A stretch of DNA of 39,095 bases. Source: Actinomycetota bacterium (lineage in GTDB: Bacteria > Actinomycetota > UBA4738 > HRBIN12). Location: the NCBI GenBank assembly GCA_021325015.1, contig JAJPHY010000048.1, positions 1 to 39,095 of the forward strand. The letters run 5' to 3'. A program made the translations under genes and the position numbers. Positions 11,950 through 37,737 of this stretch are shown here, piece by piece (the stretch's first letter is position 1; every line of letters starts with the position of its first letter). Under the pieces are notes generated by a model, which was not told where the DNA came from, made no database searches, and saw only the letters and a program-made list of their open reading frames with translations.

Positions 11950-13035
11950 GTGACCGAGTTCGTCCTCCACGTCGACCTGGACCAGTTCATCGCCGCGGTC
12001 GAGCTGCTCCGGCATCCCGAGCTCGTCGGGAAGCCGGTCGTGGTGGGCGGCGAGGGCGACCCCACCAAGCGGGGCGTGGTGTCGACGGCGAGCTACGAGG
12101 CTCGGGCGTTCGGGATCCGCTCGGGCATGCCGCTCCGAACGGCGTTCACGCGGTGTCCCGAGGCGGTGTTCCTACCGGTCGACGCGCCCGCGTACCTGGC
12201 CGCGTCGCGACGCGTCATGCGGACGCTCCGGACGTTCCCCGCGACCGTGGAGGTCGCCGGGTGGGACGAGGCGTTCCTGCGGGTCGACTCCGACGACCCC
12301 GAGGGGCTCGCCCGCGAGATCCAGCGAAGCGTCTTCGCGCGGACCCGACTGTGGTGCTCGATCGGGATCGGCGACAACAAGCTCCGCGCCAAGGTGGCGA
12401 GCCGCCTGGCCAAGCCCGCGGGCGTCTTCCGGCTGACCGCAGCCGAGTGGCACGAGGTCATGGACGCCCGCCCGGTCGACGCGCTCTGGGGGATCGGACG
12501 GAAGACGGCGGCGCGCCTTGCCGCCCTCGGGGTTCGCACGGTCGCCGATCTCGAGGGGGCGCCGGAGGAGCTCCTCGCGCGCGTCTTCGGCCCGAGGACC
12601 GGACCCTGGCTCCGGCGCCTGGCGGCCGGCGAGGACTCGTCGCCCGTGCTCGCCGAGCCTCGTGTTCCGAAGAGCCGCGGCCGCGAGCGGACGTTCCAGC
12701 GCGACCTCATCCAGGCCGACCGCGTCCGGGAGGAGGTGTGCCAACTCGCCGACGAGCTCGCGGAGGAGCTTCGGCGCGACGGACGGGCCGCGGTGCGGCT
12801 CACCGTCAAGGTGCGCTTCGCGCCCTTCGTCACCTCCACGCACGGCCTCGCGCTCGCGAGCCCCACCAACCGGGCCGACGACCTGCTCGGGGCGGCGCTG
12901 CGCACGCTCGGACGGTTCGAGCTCGATCGGCCCGTGCGCCTGGTGGGCGTGCGAGCGGAGCTCGCGCCCGGGAGAATGCCCGAGGGCGTCGAGACCACGC
13001 CCGAGGCCATCCGTGAACGAGGAGTTCGACCATGA
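11950..13035 (+). CDS. dinB: Y-family DNA polymerase IV, DinB2/DinB3-like with an aliphatic steric gate
   Basis: A 361-residue translesion polymerase. Catalytic acids are in place: D9 in HVDLD and D106-E107 in GWDEAFL. The SYEARAFGIRSGMP fingers motif, the helix-hairpin-helix LWGIGRKTAARLAALGV and a little-finger domain follow. The residue at the steric-gate position is Ile14 (DLDQFI), not Tyr or Phe as in E. coli DinB. Mycobacterial DinB2 has Leu at the same position and is known to insert ribonucleotides readily, so this enzyme may do so too (inference). GWDEAF replaces the usual SIDEAY. The GTG at 11950 is supported by the family N-terminus; a weak CATGCT -10-like box ends six bases before it. 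Its stop overlaps the start of carbamate kinase (ATGA). No C-terminal clamp motif was recognised. Confidence 0.9.
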   Translation: MTEFVLHVDLDQFIAAVELLRHPELVGKPVVVGGEGDPTKRGVVSTASYEARAFGIRSGMPLRTAFTRCPEAVFLPVDAPAYLAASRRVMRTLRTFPATVEVAGWDEAFLRVDSDDPEGLAREIQRSVFARTRLWCSIGIGDNKLRAKVASRLAKPAGVFRLTAAEWHEVMDARPVDALWGIGRKTAARLAALGVRTVADLEGAPEELLARVFGPRTGPWLRRLAAGEDSSPVLAEPRVPKSRGRERTFQRDLIQADRVREEVCQLADELAEELRRDGRAAVRLTVKVRFAPFVTSTHGLALASPTNRADDLLGAALRTLGRFELDRPVRLVGVRAELAPGRMPEGVETTPEAIRERGVRP

Positions 13036-13982
13036 GCCCGAAGACGGCGGTCGTCGCGATCGGCGGGAACTCGCTGATCAAGGACCGCATGCACCAGACC
13101 GTCCGCGACCAGTACGTCGCCGCCGGCGAGACGTGCTGGCACATCGCGGGGATGATCCGAGACGGCTGGGATGTCGTGATCACGCACGGCAACGGGCCGC
13201 AAGTCGGGTTCATCCTGCGCCGGTCCGAGCTCGCCGCCCACGAGCTCCACGAGGTGCCGCTGGACGTGTGCGGCGCCGACACCCAAGGTGCGATCGGCTA
13301 CGCGTTGCAGCAGAACCTGTACAACGACTTCGCCAGGCTCGGCATCTCCCGGCAGGCCGTGACCGTGATCACGCAGACCGAGGTGTCGGCCGACGACCCG
13401 GCGTTCGAGAACCCGTCCAAGCCCATCGGCTCCTACATGGACGAGGAGCAGGCGCGTCGTCGCCGGGAGCAGGACGGCTGGAGCGTGATCGAGGACGCCG
13501 GACGCGGATGGCGGCGGGTCGTTCCCTCGCCGCGCCCCGTGCGGATCGTCGAGCTGGACGCGATCGCGCACCTGCTCCGCGACGGGTTCGTGGTGATCGC
13601 GGTCGGCGGCGGAGGAATCCCGGTCGTGGCCGACCCGGAGGGCAACCTGCAGGGGATCGCGGCCGTGATCGACAAGGACCTCGCGTCCTCGCTGCTCGCC
13701 TCGTCGCTCGGCGCGGAGCTGTTCCTGATCAGCACCGCAGTCGAGAAGGTGGCGCTCCGCTTCGGCACCCCCGAGCAGGAGTGGATCGACCGGATGACGG
13801 TCTCGCAGGCAAAGGCGTACCTGCGGGAGGGCACCCACTTCGCCACGGGCAGCATGGCCCCGAAGATCGAGGCGGCGATCTCGTTCGTCGAGCGGACGGG
13901 GGGGACGGCGGTCATCACCAACCCGGACAACGTCGAGCGCGCCCTCGCGGGAGAGACCGGCACCCGGATCGAGTCCGGCTGA
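13032..13982 (+). CDS. arcC: Carbamate kinase
   Basis: A 316-residue amino-acid-kinase-fold enzyme that converts carbamoyl phosphate and ADP into ATP, ammonia and CO2. Visible landmarks are AIGGNSLIKD at the start, THGNGPQVGFILRRSE (substrate loop), the GGGGIPVV phosphate loop, AAVIDKDLASSLLA, and the FATGSMAPKIEAA C-terminal segment. Length is normal. The ATG overlaps the polymerase stop by four bases, with GAGGAG upstream, so it is translationally coupled to dinB, an unexpected partner. arcA, arcB, allantoin and oxamate genes are absent here, so the source of carbamoyl phosphate is unclear. Biosynthetic-type use is less likely but possible. Confidence 0.95.
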   Translation: MSPKTAVVAIGGNSLIKDRMHQTVRDQYVAAGETCWHIAGMIRDGWDVVITHGNGPQVGFILRRSELAAHELHEVPLDVCGADTQGAIGYALQQNLYNDFARLGISRQAVTVITQTEVSADDPAFENPSKPIGSYMDEEQARRRREQDGWSVIEDAGRGWRRVVPSPRPVRIVELDAIAHLLRDGFVVIAVGGGGIPVVADPEGNLQGIAAVIDKDLASSLLASSLGAELFLISTAVEKVALRFGTPEQEWIDRMTVSQAKAYLREGTHFATGSMAPKIEAAISFVERTGGTAVITNPDNVERALAGETGTRIESG

Positions 13983-28398: not shown

Positions 28399-29364
28399 CT
28401 ACCGGGGGGCGGTCGCGAACACGCCGAGGAGCTCGTAGGCGGCGTGAGCCGCGGCGATCCCGGTCAGCTCCGCGTGGTCGTACGGCGGCGAGACCTCGAC
28501 GATGTCGGCGGCCACGACGTTCAGACCGGCCAGGCCGCGAAGGATCCCGAGCAGCTCGCGCGAGGTGAGCCCGCCGGCCTCCGGGGTTCCGGTCCCGGGC
28601 GCGTGGGCGGGGTCGAGCACGTCGACGTCGATCGAGACGTAGATCGGCGCATCGCCCAGCCGATGGCGGACGCGCTCGACGACCCCGGCGACCCCCGCGG
28701 TCTCGAGCTCCATCGCCGGCACGATCCGGAACCCGAACCGCTCGTCGTCGGCCAGGTCGGCGCGAGAGTAGATCGACCCTCGGATCCCAACGTGCATCGA
28801 GCGGTCCTCGAGCAGCAGCCCCTCCTCCCAGGCGCGCCGAAACGGCGTGCCGTGCGTGTACGGGGCGCCGAAGTACGTGTCCCAGGTGTCGAGGTGCGCG
28901 TCGAAGTGCAGCAGGGCGACCGGTCCCGCCGACCGCCGCGCCACGCGAAGCAACGGGAGCGCGATCGTGTGGTCGCCGCCGATCGCGAGGAGCCGGCTCG
29001 CACCCGACAGGACCTCCTCGGCCCCCGTCTCGATCGAGCGGATCGCCTCCTGGATGTCGAACGGGTTGCAGGGCAGGTCGCCCGCGTCCGCAACCTGCTG
29101 CTCGCCGAACGGCTCGACGTCGAGCCCGGGATGGTACGCCCGGAGCAGGCGGGAGGCCGTGCGCACGTGGTGCGGCCCGAACCGCGCTCCCGGGCGGTAG
29201 GTCACACCGGAGTCGAACGGAACGCCCACGATCGCGACGTCGCACCGCTCGATCTGGTCGCGCCGGGGAAGGCGCGCGAAGGTCGAGGGGCCGGCGTAGC
29301 GCGGAACGCGGAGCGCGTCGACGGGACCGACGGGCCCCGCCGGTGGATTCGGTTCGTCCGGCAT
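28399..29364 (-). CDS. speB: Agmatinase/ureohydrolase-family enzyme
   Basis: A 321-residue Mn-dependent hydrolase of the arginase/agmatinase fold that cuts urea from a guanidino group. Metal ligands are all visible: H132 in [10 protein letters not shown]155-x-H157-x-D159 in HFDAHLDTW, and D246/D248 in [19 protein letters not shown]. The region [18 protein letters not shown] matches agmatinase-type rather than arginase-type enzymes; guanidinobutyrase and guanidinopropionase are alternatives. GGAGG lies seven bases before the ATG. A strong promoter (TTGATA-18-TATGCT) and a palindrome matching the oppA operator lie upstream, which suggests joint control with peptide/amine import. Confidence 0.92.
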
Positions 29365-29494: not shown

Positions 29495-29995
29495 TCACTC
29501 GAACAGGTCGGCAACCTCCCGAGCGCATCGCTCGATCGCGCCGAACAGCTCCCGCCGCTGGTCCTCGGGGAGCTCCGCCTCAAGCAGCGGCTCGACCTCC
29601 TCGTCGGCCTCGTCCAGGTGGGCGGTCAAGAGGGCGTGGAGGCTGTAGAGGATGCGCCGGAGCTCGCGCTCGGCCCGGGCCGAGCCGGCGCGAAGCTGCG
29701 CGAGCTGGTGCTCGAGCTCGTCCACGAGACGCCCGACCTGCACGTGACACTGGGTCATGCGGATGCCGATGGTCGGCTCTCCGGTCCGGTCGCGGACGAG
29801 CGGCATGAGCACCCGACCCTCGGCCACGGCGTGTGGCATCACCGTATGGGCGAGGAACTCGTGGGCCCTGGCGGCGCGGTCGAGCACCCCGACCGGCGGC
29901 AGCGTGCCGATCTCGTCGGCCAGCTCCCGCAGCGTCTCGAGCTCCGCCCTAATGAGCGCGTGCTCCTCATGGATGGTTCGTGCTCCGGATCCCAT
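29495..29995 (-). CDS. Hemerythrin / HHE cation-binding domain protein
   Basis: A 166-residue four-helix-bundle protein with metal-ligand-like residues in the expected helices: [51 protein letters not shown] and [20 protein letters not shown]. Such proteins bind a di-iron centre and can sense or carry oxygen, nitric oxide or iron. It starts five bases after the padR stop, with GAGGAG inside the padR end, so it is the last gene of the long dsrE-qmo transcript. Protection or redox sensing for the oxygen-sensitive iron-sulfur complex is a reasonable inference. A single Cys (QCHVQ) could also be functional. Confidence 0.82.
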
Positions 29996-30000
29996 GCTCC

Positions 30001-30453
30001 TCACCGCCTTCTCCAGGATCGGTACCGCGTCGCGAACTCGCCGATCAGCCGCACTCGCTCCTCCATCACCGCCGCCCACTCGTCGAGCGCGCGACGACCG
30101 GCGTCGGTGAGCTCGTACTCCCGCCGGCGAGGGCCCGTCGGATCGTCCGACCACCGCGAGCTCACGTGGCCGAGCGACTCCAGGCACCGGAGCGTCTTGT
30201 AGACCTGCCCCACGTCGATCTCGCCCTCCGACACGCCCATCTCCTGCAGGCGCTGGATCAACGCGTATCCGTGCGCGGGCCGCTCCGTGAGCAGGACCAG
30301 GATGAACGGCGCCATCCACCGTCGGCGGCCGCCGCAGGCGGCCCAGCCCCGGTGCAACGGGTTGCCCTTCTCGTCCCGCGACGACGCGATCTCGGCGACC
30401 CGGGGTGCGGCCTCCACCCGGGCCCCGCCCGCGAGCGGACCCGTGCCGCTCAC
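30001..30453 (-). CDS. PadR-family transcriptional regulator
   Basis: A 150-residue winged-helix regulator. After an N-terminal extension of about 45 residues comes the PadR core: MAPFILVLLTERPAHGYAL, EIDVGQVYKTLRCLESLG, RREYELTDAGRRALDEW. The GTG start overlaps the qmoC-like stop by four bases, so it is in the same operon as the electron-transfer genes. An autoregulator of the operon is likely; no operator could be assigned with confidence. A Cys in the N-terminal extension (WAACGGRRRW) might allow redox control, which is speculation. Confidence 0.85.
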   Translation of the reverse strand: MSGTGPLAGGARVEAAPRVAEIASSRDEKGNPLHRGWAACGGRRRWMAPFILVLLTERPAHGYALIQRLQEMGVSEGEIDVGQVYKTLRCLESLGHVSSRWSDDPTGPRRREYELTDAGRRALDEWAAVMEERVRLIGEFATRYRSWRRR

Positions 30454-31646
30454 GCGGGTGCACCTCCCGAACCGCTCCGCAGCCGAAGGACCGCGAGCGC
30501 GACCGGACGGTAGATCGCGTGCGCGAACTTGCCGAACGGCGCGAGCAGCACCAGGGTCATCGACACCGCCACGTGGAACAGGAACACCGGGTAGCCCCAG
30601 CCCGGCGCGTCGGGCAGGTACAGGGCGAGCTCGAGCGCGAACCCGCTCACCCCCGCGAACCACAGCAGCCACAAGAACCACCAGTCCGAGACCGACGACC
30701 GGGCCACCGATCGCTCTCGTTTGCGAACCCTGCGAACGATGGACACGGACGTTCCGTACACGAGCAGCAGCCCCCCGAGCGTTCCGAGCAGCCGGACGGG
30801 GTACCAGAGGGGCACGTGGACGCCGGTTGGCTTCAGGCCGGTCAGGTCGAGCAGAAAATCGGCGATCGTTGCGACCAGGAGGCCGAGGAAGCCCCACATC
30901 GTGGCGGCGTGGATGAACCAGCGCCGCAGGTACCACGGGCGGGCCTCCACGCCGGGGTCGTCGGCGCACTCGCGCCGCATCCGCTCCTGAGCGATGGACT
31001 CGCGCGCGACCGCGAACCAGACGGCCTCGCCAATGGCCCGGGTCGAGCGCGTACCGTGTTCGGCCGGCCGCACGCGGGAGAGGGTGCGGCAGCAGCGTAC
31101 GAGTCCGCCGATCGCGGCCACCCCGAACGCCGCGAGGATCGCGATCCCGAGGTTGTGAACGAACGTGGCCGGCAGGTACTCGAAGAGCGCGATCTCCCGG
31201 CCCGACACCGGCCGGTGCGCCGTGTACAGGAAGGCCGCGAGCGCCCCCACGAGGAGCGTGATGAACACCGTCGCGAACGGCGCCGAGGTCGCGAGCCTCC
31301 GGGCCAGGCCCGTGTGGTCGTGGCTCGCCGTCGCCCAGCGGCGGGCGGCGGCCATGAACCCAGCGGGATCGGCGTCGCGGGGGCAGCTCTGCGTGCACTC
31401 GCCGCACGCGTAGCAGGACCATACCTCCGGGCTGGCCGCGAGCCGATCCCGCATCCCGAGCTGCGCGTAGCGGATGAGCCTGCGTGGGAACGCCCCATCC
31501 TCGGTCCCGATCGGACAGACGGCGGTGCAGCTGCCGCAGTTGAAGCAGGCCGAGACGTCCACCGCGCCGAACCGCTCCAGCTCCGGGATGAGGCTGCGCT
31601 CGAGCCGAACCGGCGCGAGACTCCTGTCCTGCGTCGTGACGCTCAT
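30450..31646 (-). CDS. qmoC: QmoC-like: HdrC-type iron-sulfur domain fused to a membrane cytochrome b-like domain
   Basis: A 398-residue protein with two 4Fe-4S motifs, C34-x2-C37-x2-C40-x3-C44-P and C78-x2-C81-x2-C84-x3-C88-P, followed by six hydrophobic helices with His residues suited to haem (FVHNLG, WFIHAATMWGF, FLFHVAVSM, GKFAHAIYRP). This HdrC+HdrE fusion is the structure of QmoC, which passes electrons between the quinone pool and soluble HdrA-like subunits; DsrM/NarI-type cytochromes are less likely. It overlaps the winged-helix gene by ATGA and the padR gene by GTGA. It anchors the inferred complex to the membrane. Confidence 0.85.
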   Translation of the reverse strand: MSVTTQDRSLAPVRLERSLIPELERFGAVDVSACFNCGSCTAVCPIGTEDGAFPRRLIRYAQLGMRDRLAASPEVWSCYACGECTQSCPRDADPAGFMAAARRWATASHDHTGLARRLATSAPFATVFITLLVGALAAFLYTAHRPVSGREIALFEYLPATFVHNLGIAILAAFGVAAIGGLVRCCRTLSRVRPAEHGTRSTRAIGEAVWFAVARESIAQERMRRECADDPGVEARPWYLRRWFIHAATMWGFLGLLVATIADFLLDLTGLKPTGVHVPLWYPVRLLGTLGGLLLVYGTSVSIVRRVRKRERSVARSSVSDWWFLWLLWFAGVSGFALELALYLPDAPGWGYPVFLFHVAVSMTLVLLAPFGKFAHAIYRPVALAVLRLRSGSGGAPA

Positions 31647-31948
31647 GCTCGTGGATCCTCTCGGGTCAGCGCGTATCGGGGGTAGTCGCCCTCTTCGTCT
31701 ACCTCGGCGACCACGCCGTACTTCCGCAAGGCGGTGAGCATCCACAGCGCCTCGCGCGGCGAGATCCCGGCCGCCTCCGCGACCTGCGGCGCCGTGCGGG
31801 GGCCGTCGGCGAGCGACCGGCGGACCGCCGCCTTGATGCGGTTCTGCTCGCGCACCCGCTCCAGGAGGTCGGCCGGCGCCTGGCCGTGGAGCTCCTTGTA
31901 GACGGCGATCGTCCCCTTCGTCTTCGCCGTCGTCGTCTCGGCGCTCAT
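31643..31948 (-). CDS. Small winged-helix-like protein between the qmoB-like and qmoC-like genes
   Basis: A 101-residue protein with a basic-Thr start, a helical region (TIAVYKELHGQAPADLLERV) and a winged-helix core: AAVRRSLADGPRTAPQVAEA through EALWMLTALRKYGVVAEVDE and a RYAL wing strand. DNA-binding cannot be taken for granted, because such domains also serve as protein linkers. Both ends overlap neighbours by ATGA, so its level is fixed with the complex subunits, which favours a structural or assembly role as much as a regulator. I recognise no named family. Confidence 0.7.
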   Translation of the reverse strand: MSAETTTAKTKGTIAVYKELHGQAPADLLERVREQNRIKAAVRRSLADGPRTAPQVAEAAGISPREALWMLTALRKYGVVAEVDEEGDYPRYALTREDPRA

Positions 31949-33819
31949 CCGGTCGTCACCTCCGATGGGTCGATCGCCCTCGGGAAGCCGGCCGGATCGG
32001 CGGTGATCGCGTCCACCATGGCCAGGTACTGGCTCATCTCCCATCCCTGGACGTCGACCGCGCCGTTCGGGCAAACGGCCACGCATGCTCCGCATCCCTT
32101 GCAGGCCACCGGGTTCACGTACGCGCGCGGCACCACGACCCCCTCGTCGAGCTCGACGTCTTGGAGCCCCACGGCGCCGGGGTACGGGCACGTGGCCACG
32201 CACTCGCCGGAGCCCCGGCACCGCGACAGATCGACGCGGGCGACGAACGGCTCCATCTCGACCTGGTCGCCCGCGAGCAGCGTCGCGACCTTGGCCGCCG
32301 CCGCCGAGGCCGACGTGGTGCTCTCCGCGATGTCCATCGGGCCGCGCGCGGTCCCGGCGAGGAGGATTCCGGGGATCGCGCTCTCGACCGGCCGAAGCTT
32401 CGGATGTACCTCGAGCAGGAACCCGTCGGCGCCGGTTGGCGCCTTGGTCATCGCGACGAGATCCTCGACGGGTCCCGGCTCCATCGCGGTCGCGAGAACC
32501 ACGAGATCGACCGGAACCTCGAGCTCGGCTCCGAACGTGAGGGTGTCGCGGGTGCGAACCAGCAGCGGGTACGGGTCCTCGCGCGGCGCGGGCTCGACCG
32601 TTGCCCGCTCGTCGGTGGGCACGCGGACGAACACGACGCCGGCCTCCCCCGCCCGCCGGTACTCCTGCTCCTGATCCCTCGCGTAGGTGCGGATGTCCCG
32701 GTACACGTCGACCACCCGCACGGCGGGGAAGCGCCGTCGCGTCTCGGCCGCAGCGCGCACGGTGGCGGTGCAGCACACGCGCGAGCAGTACGTGTTCAAG
32801 CGTCCGCTCGCACCCGGCTCGTCGACGCCCTCGACCTGACGGCTCCCGACGCAGTGCAGGAACGCGATCGCCCGCACCGGCCCGTCGATCCCGAGCGCGC
32901 GCGCCGGATCGGCCTCGCCCTCGGCCGCGTACAGACGCCGCTGGTAGTCCGCGAGCGTCACCACCCGCGGATGGCCGAACCCGTACCGACCACGAGCGGG
33001 CTCGTGATCGCGGAAGCCCGTGGCGACCACGATCGCTCCGACCTCGACCTCCTCGTCGCAGGGGTGCCCGTCGGTCTCCTCACGGACCGCGCGGAGACCG
33101 ACGTGGAAATCGCCGACGTAGCCGGTGACCTGGCAGACCTCCGTCGACAGTCGAACCTCCACCAGGGGCTCGTCGCGAACCTGCGACACGAGGCGCTCGA
33201 TCAGCGCCCTTCCCGGCTCGTCGGTGGGGTACGTTCGACCCAGGCGCAGCACGTGTCCGCCGAGCTCGTTCGAGCGCTCGACCAGGACCACCGGCATCCC
33301 CCACCGGGCCAGATCGAGCGCGGCCCGCAGACCGGCCACCCCTCCGCCGACGACCAGCGTGCGGTGGACGGCGTCCACGCGGACCTCGTCGAGCTCGCGC
33401 AGCAGTGCCGCCTTGGCGATCGCGGCCTCGACGAGCCGCGCGGCCTTCTCGGTGGCCGCGGCCTGGTCGTGGACGTGAGCCCAGCTCACCTGCTCGCGGA
33501 TGTTCGCGTGCTGGTAGAGGTAGGGGTTCAGCCCGGCTCGAGCGACCACCCGACGAAACGTCGTCTCGTGCAGACTCGGCGTGCAGGCGGCCACGACCAC
33601 CCGATCCAGGCCGAGCTCCCGGACGTCCTGCTCGATCGTGCTCTGACCCTCGTCCGAGCACATGAACTGGAGGTGCCAGGCGACGACGACGTCCTCGTCG
33701 GCCCCGGCCCGAGCGGCGACGGCCTCGACATCCACGACGTCGCTGATGTTGCCGCCGCAGTGACAGACGTAGACGCCGATCCGCCTGCGGTCGGATCCCT
33801 CGGAGCCCCGGTCAGCCAC
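31945..33819 (-). CDS. qmoB: HdrA/QmoB-like flavin and iron-sulfur oxidoreductase subunit
   Basis: A 624-residue HdrA-type protein. The N-terminal HdrA domain is VYVCHCGGNISDVVDVEA, then CSDEGQ (C54) and VVAACTPSLHE. The FAD domain starts at about 154 with LVVGGGVAGLRAALDLAR and LGGHVLRLGRTYPTDEP; the Cys pair found next to the flavin in the other HdrA-like subunit is missing here. YCSRVCC follows. The C-terminus has two ferredoxin motifs: the first is C534-R-G-S537-G-E-C540-x3-C544-P, with Ser in place of one Cys; the second, C573/C576/C579/C583, is complete. GTG 33819 has GGAGGTGG upstream and overlaps the qmoA-like stop. Canonical QmoB has an MvhD domain fused at its end; here MvhD is a separate gene. 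Confidence 0.85.
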   Translation of the reverse strand: MADRGSEGSDRRRIGVYVCHCGGNISDVVDVEAVAARAGADEDVVVAWHLQFMCSDEGQSTIEQDVRELGLDRVVVAACTPSLHETTFRRVVARAGLNPYLYQHANIREQVSWAHVHDQAAATEKAARLVEAAIAKAALLRELDEVRVDAVHRTLVVGGGVAGLRAALDLARWGMPVVLVERSNELGGHVLRLGRTYPTDEPGRALIERLVSQVRDEPLVEVRLSTEVCQVTGYVGDFHVGLRAVREETDGHPCDEEVEVGAIVVATGFRDHEPARGRYGFGHPRVVTLADYQRRLYAAEGEADPARALGIDGPVRAIAFLHCVGSRQVEGVDEPGASGRLNTYCSRVCCTATVRAAAETRRRFPAVRVVDVYRDIRTYARDQEQEYRRAGEAGVVFVRVPTDERATVEPAPREDPYPLLVRTRDTLTFGAELEVPVDLVVLATAMEPGPVEDLVAMTKAPTGADGFLLEVHPKLRPVESAIPGILLAGTARGPMDIAESTTSASAAAAKVATLLAGDQVEMEPFVARVDLSRCRGSGECVATCPYPGAVGLQDVELDEGVVVPRAYVNPVACKGCGACVAVCPNGAVDVQGWEMSQYLAMVDAITADPAGFPRAIDPSEVTTG

Positions 33820-35146
33820 GAGCCACCTCCACCAGCTCGTCGGCGGTCTCGGTCGAGCGCCGCAGGTACCCGGCGACGCGCATCGCCACCGCGCTCGCCT
33901 CGGCCACCGTGTCGACGATGTCCTTCGGCGCGAGCGCCGTACCTGCGGCGAACATGCCGGGTACCTCGGTGCCGGTGACGTCGAGCGCCGCATCGGCCGA
34001 GCGGACGAACCCGTATCGATCCGTCCGGACCGGCGCGAAACGACCCACGTCGTCTCCCGGCTCGAGTCCCACCGAGAGCACGACCAGGTCGTGGCGCACG
34101 TCCTCCACCCGACCGTCCTCCTCCTGATGCTCGATTCGCAGATCCACGTCGCCATCCGGACGCGGAGTGATCCTCGCCACCTTGGCCTTGACGAAGTTGA
34201 TGCCCATCGAACGGGCGGTCTGGTAGAACTCCTCGTATCCCTTGCCGAACGTGCGGATGTCCATGTGGTAGATCGTGATGTCGGCGAGCGGCAGCGCCCC
34301 CGACAGCAACATCGCCTGCTTGATCGCGTACATGCAGCACACGCGGGAGCAGTAGGGAACGCCGAGGGTCTCGTCCCGCGAGCCGGCGCACTGCACGTAC
34401 GCGATGCGCTCGGGGATCTTGCCGTCCGACGGCCGCAGCACGCGGCCGTAGGGGCCGTTCGGTGCGAGCAGTCGCTCCATGTCCAGGCCGCTGATGACGT
34501 TTCCGGTCCGGCCCGCGACGTACTCCCGCTTGGCATCGGTCGGCGTGGGCCGGTAGCCGGTGGCAAGGACCACCGCCCGCGCGCGCGCCTCGATCGCCTC
34601 CGGCTCCTGCAGCAGATCGATGGCGCCGGCCGGGCAGGCCTTCTCGCACTTGCCGCACAGGATGCAGTTCGCGAGGTCGAGGACGGCCTTCTGTGGGATC
34701 GCCGTTCCGAAGGGCACGGCGATCGCGCGGCGCGCTCCGAGCCCACCGTCGAACTCGTGCGGGACGTCGACCGGGCACGCGTACTCGCACAGCCGGCAAC
34801 CGGTGCACGCGTCCTCGTTCACGTACCGCGGGCGCTTCACGATCCGGGCCTCGAACCCTCCGGGCACCCGCGTGATCGAGGTCACATCGGAGTAGGTGAG
34901 GGTCGTCACCAGGTCGTGGTGCGCGGCGGCCGACATCTTCGGCGTGGTGATGCAGCTCGCACAGTCCATGGTCGGGAAGACCTTCGACAGCCCGATCATG
35001 TGGCCGCCGATGCTGGCCTCACGCTCGACGAGCAGCACCCGGTACCCCTGGTCGCCGAGGTCGAGCGATGCCTGGAGACCGGCGATCCCCGCGCCGACGA
35101 CGAGCACGTCGGCGTCGATGCGTCGAGCGAACGCCGCCGCGCTCAC
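33812..35146 (-). CDS. qmoA: HdrA/QmoA-like flavoprotein with iron-sulfur clusters
   Basis: A 444-residue HdrA-like subunit of the length expected for QmoA. Order: FAD motif VLVVGAGIAGLQASLDLG (14-31), the HdrA signature FPTMDCASCITTPKM (C62 and C65), two 4Fe-4S motifs C114/C117/C120/C124 and C161/C164/C167/C171, then CAGSRDETLGVPYCSRVCCM and the GxFAAGTALAPKDI FAD-binding end. In known Qmo and Hdr complexes this subunit splits or relays electrons at the flavin. The GTG overlaps the mvhD-like stop by four bases. Unlike its partner gene product, all cluster ligands are present. Confidence 0.88.
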   Translation of the reverse strand: MSAAAFARRIDADVLVVGAGIAGLQASLDLGDQGYRVLLVEREASIGGHMIGLSKVFPTMDCASCITTPKMSAAAHHDLVTTLTYSDVTSITRVPGGFEARIVKRPRYVNEDACTGCRLCEYACPVDVPHEFDGGLGARRAIAVPFGTAIPQKAVLDLANCILCGKCEKACPAGAIDLLQEPEAIEARARAVVLATGYRPTPTDAKREYVAGRTGNVISGLDMERLLAPNGPYGRVLRPSDGKIPERIAYVQCAGSRDETLGVPYCSRVCCMYAIKQAMLLSGALPLADITIYHMDIRTFGKGYEEFYQTARSMGINFVKAKVARITPRPDGDVDLRIEHQEEDGRVEDVRHDLVVLSVGLEPGDDVGRFAPVRTDRYGFVRSADAALDVTGTEVPGMFAAGTALAPKDIVDTVAEASAVAMRVAGYLRRSTETADELVEVARG

Positions 35147-35637
35147 GGGGACTCACTCCCCACGGGCTCGGGCCCGCGCGCCAGCTCGGCGGCGACCGGG
35201 CCCAGCTCCTCTACCACCCGTGCGAGGTCCCCGACCTCTTTCACGAAGGCTTTCGTGCACACCGAGCAGATCGCGGTGAGCCTCAGCCTCCGGATGTCGA
35301 GGCCGCGCTCCTTCATCTGCCGGTACACCCGGTTGATCCGGGCGGCGAGGCGCTCGTAGGACCCCTCGTACGGACTGTCGGTCCCGCAGGAGGCGATCAG
35401 GATGCCGTCGATCCCCCGCTCGAAGCAGTGCCAGTAGAAGGACTCAGGGAACATCACGGGATCCGGCGTTGGAAGGACATACGTGTTCGCGGGGTAGTCC
35501 AGGTGCGCCTGACCCGTCGCGTCGATCCCCGGATAGGCGCAGAGGAGCGACGCGAGCACCAGGATCCTCGTCGACCGCGCGTTCGTCTGGGCTTGGAGGT
35601 CCATCAGCGCCCCACTCGCGCCTGCAGAGCTGCTCAT
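35143..35637 (-). CDS. mvhD: MvhD-like iron-sulfur protein with altered cysteine pattern
   Basis: A 164-residue protein with the MvhD fold: RILVLASLLCAYPGIDATGQ, DYPANTYVLPTPDPVMF, ERGIDGILIASCGTDSPYEG and RINRVYRQMKERGLDIRRLR. In known MvhD a set of five Cys binds a 2Fe-2S cluster and links the hydrogenase to HdrA. Here only two of those positions appear kept (C33 and C84), while C71, C124 and C127 are new, so the cluster may be bound differently (inference from remembered family motifs). It starts 12 bases after the tusA stop, without a clear ribosome-binding site; Met12 is an alternative start. Confidence 0.75.
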   Translation of the reverse strand: MSSSAGASGALMDLQAQTNARSTRILVLASLLCAYPGIDATGQAHLDYPANTYVLPTPDPVMFPESFYWHCFERGIDGILIASCGTDSPYEGSYERLAARINRVYRQMKERGLDIRRLRLTAICSVCTKAFVKEVGDLARVVEELGPVAAELARGPEPVGSESP

Positions 35638-35649
35638 CAGCGGCAGCGC

Positions 35650-35916
35650 TCACTTCTTACGGCGGACGAACACCCGCTCGTAGCCGTCGGCGGCAAGGAC
35701 TCCGAGGAACTCGTGGCCGACCTTGCCGGCCCACGCCTCGACGTCCGACTTGGTCTGGGGATCGCTGGACCAGATCTCCAGGATCCCGTCGATCCCCACG
35801 CCGCCGATGCCCTTCTTGGCCTCCAGCAGCGGGCCGGGGCAGGCCGATCCCCGAGCGTCCACCCTCTTGTCCGGAACGAGCGACGCGAGCTCCGCCGCTT
35901 CGCGTACGGTGGTCAT
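35650..35916 (-). CDS. tusA: TusA/SirA-family sulfur-carrier protein
   Basis: An 88-residue small carrier. The CPxP-type motif is DARGSACPGPLLEAKKGI with the sulfur-binding Cys26, and the strand-helix pattern (WSSDPQTKSDVEAWAGKVGH) is typical. TusA proteins receive and pass persulfide sulfur, for example to DsrE-type partners and to Hdr-like or Dsr enzymes in sulfur oxidisers. GGAGG lies five bases before the ATG. It is second in the operon after the dsrE-like gene, which supports a sulfur-relay role rather than tRNA thiolation alone. Confidence 0.9.
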   Translation of the reverse strand: MTTVREAAELASLVPDKRVDARGSACPGPLLEAKKGIGGVGIDGILEIWSSDPQTKSDVEAWAGKVGHEFLGVLAADGYERVFVRRKK

Positions 35917-35962
35917 GGTGCCTCCTTCGATTGCCTCGCGCGAACGGTCGGTCTTCGTCCAC

Positions 35963-36331
35963 TCAGTAGACGAGGCTGTTCGTGGCCGAGGTGATCTCCG
36001 CGACGAACCGGCCGGCGGCCACGACCTCGGCTCCCTCCACAAGCCCCTCCGGAGGAATCTGCCGCGCCTTGATGCAGGGGCTGCAGACGAGCAGCTTGCC
36101 GCCGAGCTCGCGGATCGTGGGCAGCAGCTCCCGGATCGGAGTGAACTCGGGTGCCTCGACCTTCTCCGCGATGCCTTCCTGCACCAGGCGAACGCCCTCG
36201 GCCTGGAAGCCCATGACGACCTCCACGTCCGAGGCGAGCGCCGCGGCGGCCATGACGAACGGGATCGTGGCGAGCTCCGCCTCGTCCGGCCCGTGCGTGA
36301 CCATGATCACGAGCTTCTGCTGACCCGGCAT
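35963..36331 (-). CDS. dsrE: DsrE/DsrF-like sulfur-transfer family protein
   Basis: A 122-residue protein of the DsrE/F-like fold, opening KLVIMVTHGPDEAELATIPF, with the conserved late motif LLVCSPCIKAR (C83 and C86) that would bind persulfide sulfur. DsrE-type proteins exchange sulfur with TusA. GGGAGGTG lies six bases before the ATG. It is the first gene of the inferred nine-gene transcript. A -10-like TATGTT is 34 bases upstream. It lacks partner DsrF and DsrH subunits, so it is probably homo-oligomeric like stand-alone DsrE-like proteins. Confidence 0.82.
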   Translation of the reverse strand: MPGQQKLVIMVTHGPDEAELATIPFVMAAAALASDVEVVMGFQAEGVRLVQEGIAEKVEAPEFTPIRELLPTIRELGGKLLVCSPCIKARQIPPEGLVEGAEVVAAGRFVAEITSATNSLVY

Positions 36332-36678
36332 GGCGACACCTCCCGGTTCTGTATGCCCAGGGCCAACATAGGTCGCAGTCCTCTAGATCCCCGAGGCCAA
36401 ACGGTCCCGATCCCGCCCGGCGATGGTCCCGAGGCAGCGCACCGTCGCACCGACAGGCGTATGTCGCTGAAATCCTTGCGGCGCAAACATGTCTGGGATG
36501 GGAGCCGAGGGACCCTAGGGTAGATGCCCGAGGGCACTCTCGGGTGCCCGCCCGAGGCGCGTGGCCCGATACCAGCTGCCAACGCGTGCGCGGTCGCCAT
36601 CGCGGCGATCGCCGCGACCACGAGCGCAAGGGACCGACGAATTGGAATAGCCGTCGAGACGCGCGCGTTCCCCTGCAC
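36307..36678 (-). CDS. Doubtful secreted-protein frame upstream of dsrE
   Basis: A 123-codon minus-strand frame (GTG 36676-36678) begins with a signal-peptide-like stretch IRRSLALVVAAIAAMATAHA. The rest is Arg/Pro/Gly-rich with no recognised family, and its end overlaps the dsrE start by 25 bases. Alanine-rich hydrophobic runs are common by chance in GC-rich DNA and the start has no ribosome-binding site. Treat it as a possible gene, not an established one. Confidence 0.2.
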   Translation of the reverse strand: MQGNARVSTAIPIRRSLALVVAAIAAMATAHALAAGIGPRASGGHPRVPSGIYPRVPRLPSQTCLRRKDFSDIRLSVRRCAASGPSPGGIGTVWPRGSRGLRPMLALGIQNREVSPCRVSRSS

Positions 36679-36696
36679 AAAGCGAGGAATGGAGCC
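36332..36696. promoter_or_regulatory. 365-base divergent regulatory region between dsrE and pirin
   Basis: It holds the likely dsrE promoter (TATGTT read on the minus strand at 36365-36370), a perfect palindrome ACCCTAGGGT at 36512-36521, and an inverted/direct arrangement CCCGAG-N6-CTCGGG-N6-CCCGAG at 36527-36556 in which the middle arm can pair with either flank. CCCGAGG also occurs at 36390 and 36428. No clear -35 box was found for either gene. The doubtful secreted frame above also lies here. Confidence 0.4.
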
Positions 36697-37737
36697 ATGC
36701 CTGCGATCACCGTCGACGACCTCACGCTCCTGGACCGCCTGCCGCCGGTGGACCCTGCGCTGCGGCAGCGGCGGGTGCGAAGCGTGACGGTCGCCCCGCA
36801 CGGCCTCGAGGGCGAGGGGTTCCCGGTCCGGCGCGCGTTCGCGGGAGCGGACCTCACCGACCTCGACCCGTTCATCCACATGGACCAGATGGGCGAGGTC
36901 GAGTACGCGCCCGGCGAGCCGAAGGGCACGCCCTGGCATCCGCACCGCGGGTTCGAGACCGTCACCTACATGATCGACGGCATCTTCGAGCACCAGGACT
37001 CGAACGGCGGCGGCGGCGTGATCACGAACGGCGACACCCAGTGGATGACGGCCGGAGCGGGGATCCTGCACATCGAGCGGCCGCCCGAGCACCTGGTCGC
37101 GAGCGGCGGGCTGTTCCACGGGCTGCAGCTATGGGTGAACCTCCCGAGGACCCAGAAGTGGGCGCCGCCGAGGTACCAGGACCTGCGCGCCCGCGAGGTG
37201 GCCCTGCTCGCCTCGCCCGACGCCGGCGCGCTCGTGCGGGTGATCGCGGGTGAGATCGCCGGCCATCGCGGGCCCGGCGACACGTACACACCCATGACGA
37301 TGGTGCACGCCACGGTGTCCCCCGGGGCGCGTCTCGAGCTTCCCTGGCGCCCCGACTTCAACGCGCTCGCCTACGTGCTCGCCGGGTTCGGCACCGTCGG
37401 CGTCGAGCGCCATCCCGTCGCCACCGGCCAGCTCGCGGTGTTCGGCCCCGGCGACGCCGTCCGGCTGGAGGCGGCGAGGACCCAGGAGTCGAGATCGCCC
37501 GCGCTCGAGGTGCTCCTGCTCGGCGGCCGGCCGATCCGCGAGCCGGTCGCCTGGTACGGGCCGTTCGTCATGAACACGCGCGACGAGCTGATCCAGGCCT
37601 TCGAGGACTACCAGGCGGGCCGCCTCGGCACCATCCCGGCCGCCCACCACACCCCGGACCACGTCGTCGAGTCGACGCCGCAGCCGGACCGGCTGCAGCC
37701 GGACCCCGAGCTCGGAACGAGCCCCGACCGCGAGTGA
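36697..37737 (+). CDS. Pirin-family bicupin protein
   Basis: A 346-residue cupin protein with the pirin metal site: H81-x-H83 in WHPHRGFETVTYMIDG, and H125/E127 in AGAGILHIERPP, which in known pirins hold iron. Known bacterial pirins act as quercetin dioxygenases or as redox-sensitive regulatory partners. The second cupin is also clear (SPGARLELPWRPDFNALAYV). The C-terminal tail after about 320 is a short disordered extension. GGAG lies two bases before the ATG, rather close. It is divergent from the dsrE operon across a 365-base gap. Confidence 0.9.
   Translation: MPAITVDDLTLLDRLPPVDPALRQRRVRSVTVAPHGLEGEGFPVRRAFAGADLTDLDPFIHMDQMGEVEYAPGEPKGTPWHPHRGFETVTYMIDGIFEHQDSNGGGGVITNGDTQWMTAGAGILHIERPPEHLVASGGLFHGLQLWVNLPRTQKWAPPRYQDLRAREVALLASPDAGALVRVIAGEIAGHRGPGDTYTPMTMVHATVSPGARLELPWRPDFNALAYVLAGFGTVGVERHPVATGQLAVFGPGDAVRLEAARTQESRSPALEVLLLGGRPIREPVAWYGPFVMNTRDELIQAFEDYQAGRLGTIPAAHHTPDHVVESTPQPDRLQPDPELGTSPDRE

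Follow-up and report, generated by a model that had tools for sequence, protein, structure and literature searches.

A conserved tusA-flpD-qmo-like gene cassette in an Actinomycetota genome, encoding a candidate membrane-bound sulfane-sulfur:quinone oxidoreductase

The window analysed here, positions 1 to 39,095 of contig JAJPHY010000048.1 (assembly GCA_021325015.1) of an Actinomycetota bacterium from which sulfur-based energy metabolism would not be expected, carries a row of nine minus-strand genes (29495-36331) in which a conserved six-gene cassette is embedded, tusA-flpD-qmoA-qmoB-wH-qmoC, where wH codes for a small winged-helix-like protein. The products would form a membrane-bound sulfane-sulfur:quinone oxidoreductase that moves electrons between TusA- or DsrE-bound sulfur and quinone, a reading to which we give about an even chance. 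It is favoured by the occurrence of the cassette across phyla, the sulfur genes that flank it, a sulfur gene set on contig C120 of the same genome, the invariant TusA Cys26 and FlpD CxxC, the conserved residues of QmoC, the MvhD-like structural model of FlpD and the general lack of AprA and DsrA. An original prediction made from the window alone had proposed a membrane complex of Qmo type linked to TusA/DsrE carriers, and this is supported by family matches and by the conserved gene order.

Relatives of the cassette were sought by scanning a QmoC alignment against 84,980 species genomes, which gave 396 relatives; 80 of them were kept, and the rest may include Apr-linked Qmo. Each of the 62 loci with 6.5 kb or more of sequence upstream of qmoC has tusA, flpD, qmoA, qmoB and qmoC on one strand, so that the arrangement is not due to chance and the synteny is not a peculiarity of this assembly. 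Nearly every locus also has a DsrE-family gene by the cassette, and as it is kept at differing positions, the link appears to be functional rather than merely inherited. According to database labels, mostly of metagenome assemblies, the hosts belong to Chloroflexota, Actinomycetota, Bacillota, Acidobacteria, Planctomycetota, Bacteroidota, Latescibacteria, deltaproteobacterial lineages and Thermoplasmata, and include Cellulomonas and Actinotalea isolates; a single archaeal genome carries the cassette, which is otherwise spread over many bacterial phyla. Searches of plasmid and viral contigs gave no match, and no description of the cassette was found in the literature searched, whose coverage left out preprints and most subscription papers.

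The two putative sulfur carriers keep their characteristic motifs. TusA (88 aa, 35650..35916; Pfam TusA, E = 3.1e-16) has a CPGP motif whose Cys26 is invariant in 73 aligned sequences, and DsrE (122 aa, 35963..36331; Pfam DsrE, E = 1.1e-14) has a CxPC motif (LLVCSPCIKAR) that its close relatives in the alignment share with few exceptions. The third protein, FlpD (164 aa, 35143..35637; Pfam FlpD), had been described as MvhD-like, which holds for its fold: an AlphaFold2 model reached a predicted local distance difference test score (pLDDT) of 87 when built with an alignment (42 without), and template modelling scores of 0.72-0.91 to the MvhD-type chains of 5odh, 5odc, 8rvu and 7bkb. It does not hold for the cysteines, as the MvhD motifs CNWC, MCxGR and GCHxGDC are not conserved in the aligned cassette FlpD proteins, which have gained instead a CxxC (Cys124/Cys127 in the window protein) that is invariant across loci of both QmoA length types described below. 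Gene content, gene order, residue patterns and the lack of Apr and Dsr are observations; the chemistry assigned to the conserved residues here is inferred, as are the individual transfers, their direction and what is formed. In the proposed mechanism, TusA Cys26 and DsrE would present a protein persulfide to the FlpD CxxC, FlpD would occupy the place at which MvhD docks on HdrA, and a di- or trisulfide made or broken at the CxxC would exchange two electrons with the HdrA-like FAD/4Fe-4S chain. The cassette shares the HdrA and MvhD folds with HdrABC-MvhD and differs from it in having no HdrB in the operon, a CxxC in place of the MvhD cysteines and a membrane QmoC in place of HdrBC. The CCG (HdrB-type) genes of this genome are on other contigs.

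QmoA of the window (444 aa, 33812..35146; HdrA2 model, E = 4e-137; solved HdrA, E = 6.7e-118) has an FAD fold and two 4Fe-4S motifs, and belongs to a short type (~440 aa) found at 30 loci. In the long type (~910 aa, 44 loci), a GltD-like domain (PRK12771/GltD family; Fer4_20, Pyr_redox_2), absent from the window protein, is inserted within the ferredoxin region. The two types fall into largely separate clades of a concatenated QmoABC tree, L112 and L122 being exceptions. With the GltD-like domain, the long-type complexes would have NAD(P)H as a partner besides the other two, in keeping with electron bifurcation or confurcation. The whole cassette could alternatively be an Hdr-type bifurcating NAD(P)H/ferredoxin:menaquinone oxidoreductase, with TusA, DsrE and the CxxC serving cofactor maturation or redox regulation rather than bulk sulfur metabolism. 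QmoA and QmoB are clear HdrA relatives, and there is a precedent in HdrL of Desulfobacterium autotrophicum, a fusion of HdrA and glutamate synthase with MvhD (PMC2702500), which the long-type QmoA resembles in being such a fusion next to an mvhD-like gene. The HdrL loci described there are soluble systems without tusA or qmoC, and the window QmoA is free of the insert. As DsrE and TusA are kept with the cassette across phyla, its flanks are crowded with sulfur genes and FlpD has not kept the cysteines of MvhD, the electron-entry subunit, we regard this bifurcating function as unlikely.

QmoB (624 aa, 31945..33819; HdrA2 model, E = 1.7e-147) consists of an HdrA N-terminal domain and a C-terminal ferredoxin domain, in which Ser537 of the window protein replaces a cluster cysteine; this position is usually not a cysteine in the short type. 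Between qmoB and qmoC lies wH (101 aa, 31643..31948), with weak HTH_20/DUF7342 matches. A tblastn match to it was obtained in 52 of the 62 loci, and it could be read by eye in four of the other ten (L039, L050, L061, L064). In six Bacteroidota loci (L107, L110, L116, L117, L119, L120) the winged-helix domain is fused to the C-terminus of QmoB (hidden Markov model E-values 1e-17 to 5e-13), and mainly for this reason wH is probably a subunit of the complex rather than a regulator. The QmoB frame of L089 (~549-2471) also runs into a winged-helix domain, the quality of the sequence there being unchecked.

QmoC (398 aa, 30450..31646) combines two 4Fe-4S clusters with a NarI-like membrane part by Pfam, and hydropathy indicates about six transmembrane segments. 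In the alignment its eight 4Fe-4S cysteines are invariant, with Cys227 as an additional invariant cysteine, and histidines 164, 246, 358 and 376 are nearly so, which makes them candidate ligands of two bis-His hemes b. Electrons would pass through the two clusters and the two hemes to or from (mena)quinone.

One of the closest known systems is the Apr-linked (type I) QmoABC, in which two HdrA-like flavo-iron-sulfur subunits are likewise encoded together with a QmoC bearing 4Fe-4S clusters and a heme-type membrane domain; TusA, FlpD with its CxxC, wH and DsrE are additions of the cassette. The NCBIfam qmoC model matches the window QmoC (E = 1.3e-52) under its curated cut-off, with 179.5 bits against the 300 required by equivalog NF038018. 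In an HdrA-superfamily tree (FastTree, 458 columns, midpoint root), QmoA and QmoB of the Apr-linked systems are each other's closest relatives, whereas those of the cassette fall into two distinct clades, both with support, and in the concatenated tree a branch of 1.93 separates the cassette set from the Apr-linked set. The window QmoA is 39% identical to the HdrA of its own genome and 34-36% identical to Apr-linked QmoA; for QmoB the values are 35% and 29-30%. Despite the names qmoA and qmoB in the original prediction, these proteins are not orthologous to the Apr-linked pair and represent a separate assembly of HdrA-like proteins. AprA exceeded the cut-off, beside qmo, in all five Apr-linked Qmo genomes tested; of 26 cassette genomes, a single deltaproteobacterium had such an AprA; DsrA was over the cut-off in two of these 26. 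Neither was found in the window's genome, for which all absences rest on family searches of a 2.6-Mb assembly in 169 contigs that is 96.5% complete, and the operon itself was confirmed to contain no aprA, dsrA or hdrB by the Pfam and NCBIfam assignments of its proteins. The QmoC-like subunit, the two HdrA-like subunits and a sat gene in the genome would also be expected of an ordinary type I QmoABC serving an APS (adenylylsulfate) reductase encoded elsewhere. This identity was rejected, as AprA did not exceed the cut-off in the genome and the A and B subunits fall outside the Apr-linked QmoA/QmoB group; it is extremely improbable and would hold only if aprAB lay within the missing ~3% of the assembly. 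Neukirchen et al. (PMC10504309) report a type II QmoABC, of Ammonifex degensii and Vulcanisaeta moutnovskia, that stands closer to HdrA and may occur either alongside Apr and Dsr or in their absence. The cassette fits that description, by which, and not by type II sequences, the two are likened: its A and B subunits are nearer to HdrA than to those of Apr-linked Qmo, and it occurs without Apr and Dsr. It differs in that, in the parts of PMC10504309 consulted, tusA, dsrE, flpD and wH are not mentioned as belonging to the type II unit.

Sulfur genes are frequent around the cassettes. The 264 open reading frames within 4.5 kb include matches to DrsE_2 (25), DsrE (18), ArsR-type HTH_5 (16), rhodanese (8) and Pyr_redox_2 (8), as raw counts with no random-neighbourhood control, many of the DsrE-type matches being the cassette's own DsrE. 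Genes for YeeE/TsuA (L075), TauE/SafE (L048, L054, L055, L056, L094), sulfide:quinone oxidoreductase (SQR)-type proteins (L057, L096, L097, L099) and CoA-disulfide reductase-type oxidoreductases are found beside cassettes. In the window's genome, contig C120 carries a DsrE2-TusA-SQR-TusA-DsrE2 array, whose SQR scores 358 bits with the type III SQR model, below the cut-off of that selenoprotein model. At L057 a homologue of this SQR (51% identity) lies ~10 kb from qmoC and a homologue of one DsrE2 is also by the cassette, and at L054 and L055 homologues of both DsrE2 proteins are beside it. A third DsrE2 gene, on contig C5 (L199:5380-6203), adjoins a tusA split over overlapping frames, perhaps by a frameshift, and a second DsrE-family gene, 31% identical to that of the window, lies on contig C145 (L202:2325-2690) away from any cassette. 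Upstream of the cassette of a Cellulomonas isolate there is a gene for a TDT/SLAC1-family anion carrier (L082:792-1955).

The SQR of the genome, together with TauE near the closest relatives, suggests that the flow in this bacterium is probably oxidative: SQR would convert sulfide to sulfane sulfur, DsrE2 and TusA would carry it, and the complex would pass further electrons to quinone. Some facts weigh against an oxidoreductase of this kind. The cassette holds no HdrB-type (CCG) or other known sulfite-forming active site; TusA and DsrE also act in biosynthesis and regulation; and the CoA-disulfide reductase with a C-terminal rhodanese domain that stands just after the cassette in Acidobacteria (L103:12012-13739 and others) is equally compatible with reduction. 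The same Acidobacteria loci have genes for a FadL-type outer-membrane protein and an ArsR protein upstream. That reductase would be at home in a reductive pathway, in which sulfane sulfur on TusA/DsrE would be reduced to sulfide by quinol, joined by NAD(P)H in the long type, for sulfur respiration or persulfide detoxification; the GltD-like NAD(P)H domain of the long type and the [NiFe]-hydrogenase and Hdr genes on contig C104 of the window's genome point the same way. Reduction of sulfane sulfur by quinol is, however, thermodynamically hard without a low-potential co-donor, the short-type QmoA of the window has no NAD(P)H domain and the SQR points to oxidation, so that the reductive direction seems unlikely. 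Contig C104 (L014:4150-15444) carries two large/small [NiFe]-hydrogenase pairs around an HdrC/HdrB-type open reading frame and HdrA, followed by hydrogenase maturation genes, one pair having NAD-binding and DHODB-type partners.

Oxidation could also go further, with the cassette substituting for sHdr or reverse Dsr and oxidizing TusA-bound sulfane sulfur fully to sulfite for TauE-type export. The TauE/SafE genes near the five loci named above would suit this, as would a genome with SQR, TusA and DsrE2 in which dsrA and soxB were not found by family search. It is quite unlikely, since four electrons and three oxygens would have to be handled without a recognised site, and TauE also carries other anions. 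The sHdr-LbpA system itself has TusA and DsrE beside an HdrA-based complex, as here, whereas the cassette is without HdrB or lbpA and includes a membrane subunit. The search for apr, sat, sox and LbpA called for by the original prediction was thus answered in part: sat is present, AprA and SoxB were not found, and for GcvH-type proteins the genome gave a clear match and a marginal one, both on contigs other than that of the window. The YTD cluster of sulfur disproportionators (PMC12998232, PMC8780430) shares TusA and DsrE with the cassette, and L075 also has YeeE/TsuA adjoining its cassette; the YTD cluster is described without Hdr/Qmo genes, and its yedE and conserved hypothetical genes are not at the window.

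The cassette and its host have different affinities. By its RpoB the host belongs to Actinomycetota, where it clusters with Cellulomonas, Actinotalea and Acidimicrobiaceae (100/99) away from Chloroflexota; this ruled out the Chloroflexota host first assumed from the cassette relatives. The window QmoABC groups with four Chloroflexota loci (L054, L055, L056 and L065, the last from Limnocylindrales; support 1.0), with up to 70% identity in QmoA, and a full-length QmoC was found in no other genome among the 16 of the family and the 26 of the class searched. One genome of the order (G024) matches QmoC only over an HdrC-like iron-sulfur stretch. This grouping and the absence from the host's own family and class suggest that the cassette was transferred between phyla. 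A mis-binned Chloroflexota contig was rejected, as tetranucleotide composition fits the rest of the genome best (0.90 for the flank and 0.81 for the operon, against 0.76 and 0.61 for Limnocylindria locus L065); this is no more than suggestive, because the binning of contigs draws on that signal too.

All nine open reading frames of the row (dsrE, the six cassette genes, padR and the hemerythrin gene) are present head to tail near where the original prediction placed them, with Pfam families assigned. Gaps separate dsrE-tusA (46 bases) and tusA-flpD (12), and overlaps join flpD-qmoA (4), qmoA-qmoB (8), qmoB-wH (4), wH-qmoC (4) and qmoC-padR (4). The junction between padR (150 aa, 30001..30453; Pfam PadR, E = 1.4e-19) and the gene for a hemerythrin HHE-domain protein (166 aa, 29495..29995; Pfam Hemerythrin, E = 5.4e-11) is a 5-base gap from the ATG at 29995 or a 4-base overlap from an alternative GTG at 30004. 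The dsrE-tusA gap is thus exceptional among the eight junctions, the other seven ranging from an 8-base overlap to a gap of 12 bases. The overlaps and gaps of the earlier tally are real, but they add up to nine junctions where nine genes have eight, padR-hemerythrin having probably been counted both ways. These last two genes, taken then as parts of the unit, are outside the conserved core: PadR is mainly found beside Chloroflexota cassettes and hemerythrin homologues near a few of them (e.g. L048, L057), both being lineage-specific neighbours. Upstream of the row lies a divergent pirin gene (~36544-37737), and downstream an agmatinase-type gene on the same strand (28399-29364). Elsewhere in the window, genes for an IMS-type (Y-family) DNA polymerase and an amino-acid-kinase-family protein overlap by 4 bases (11950-13982).

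We class the cassette as a variant within the HdrA/Qmo kind; there is a real chance that it represents a separate route between sulfur and quinone. Its new features, as read from the sequences, are the CxxC on the MvhD fold of FlpD, the fusion of wH with QmoB and the short and long QmoA types. That it constitutes a cytoplasmic sulfane sulfur-quinone route beside reverse Dsr and sHdr, with a FlpD-CxxC module and a wH subunit, transferred between phyla and also present in Cellulomonas and Actinotalea, is possible, though we consider it somewhat short of an even prospect. If true, many bacteria of soil, peat, groundwater and mine drainage now taken for heterotrophs could use sulfur to gain energy, or spend energy on it, through an enzyme that surveys of dsr, sox and sHdr marker genes would miss or misfile as Qmo, a redox complex would have a winged-helix fold among its subunits, and cultivable hosts would be at hand for a direct test.

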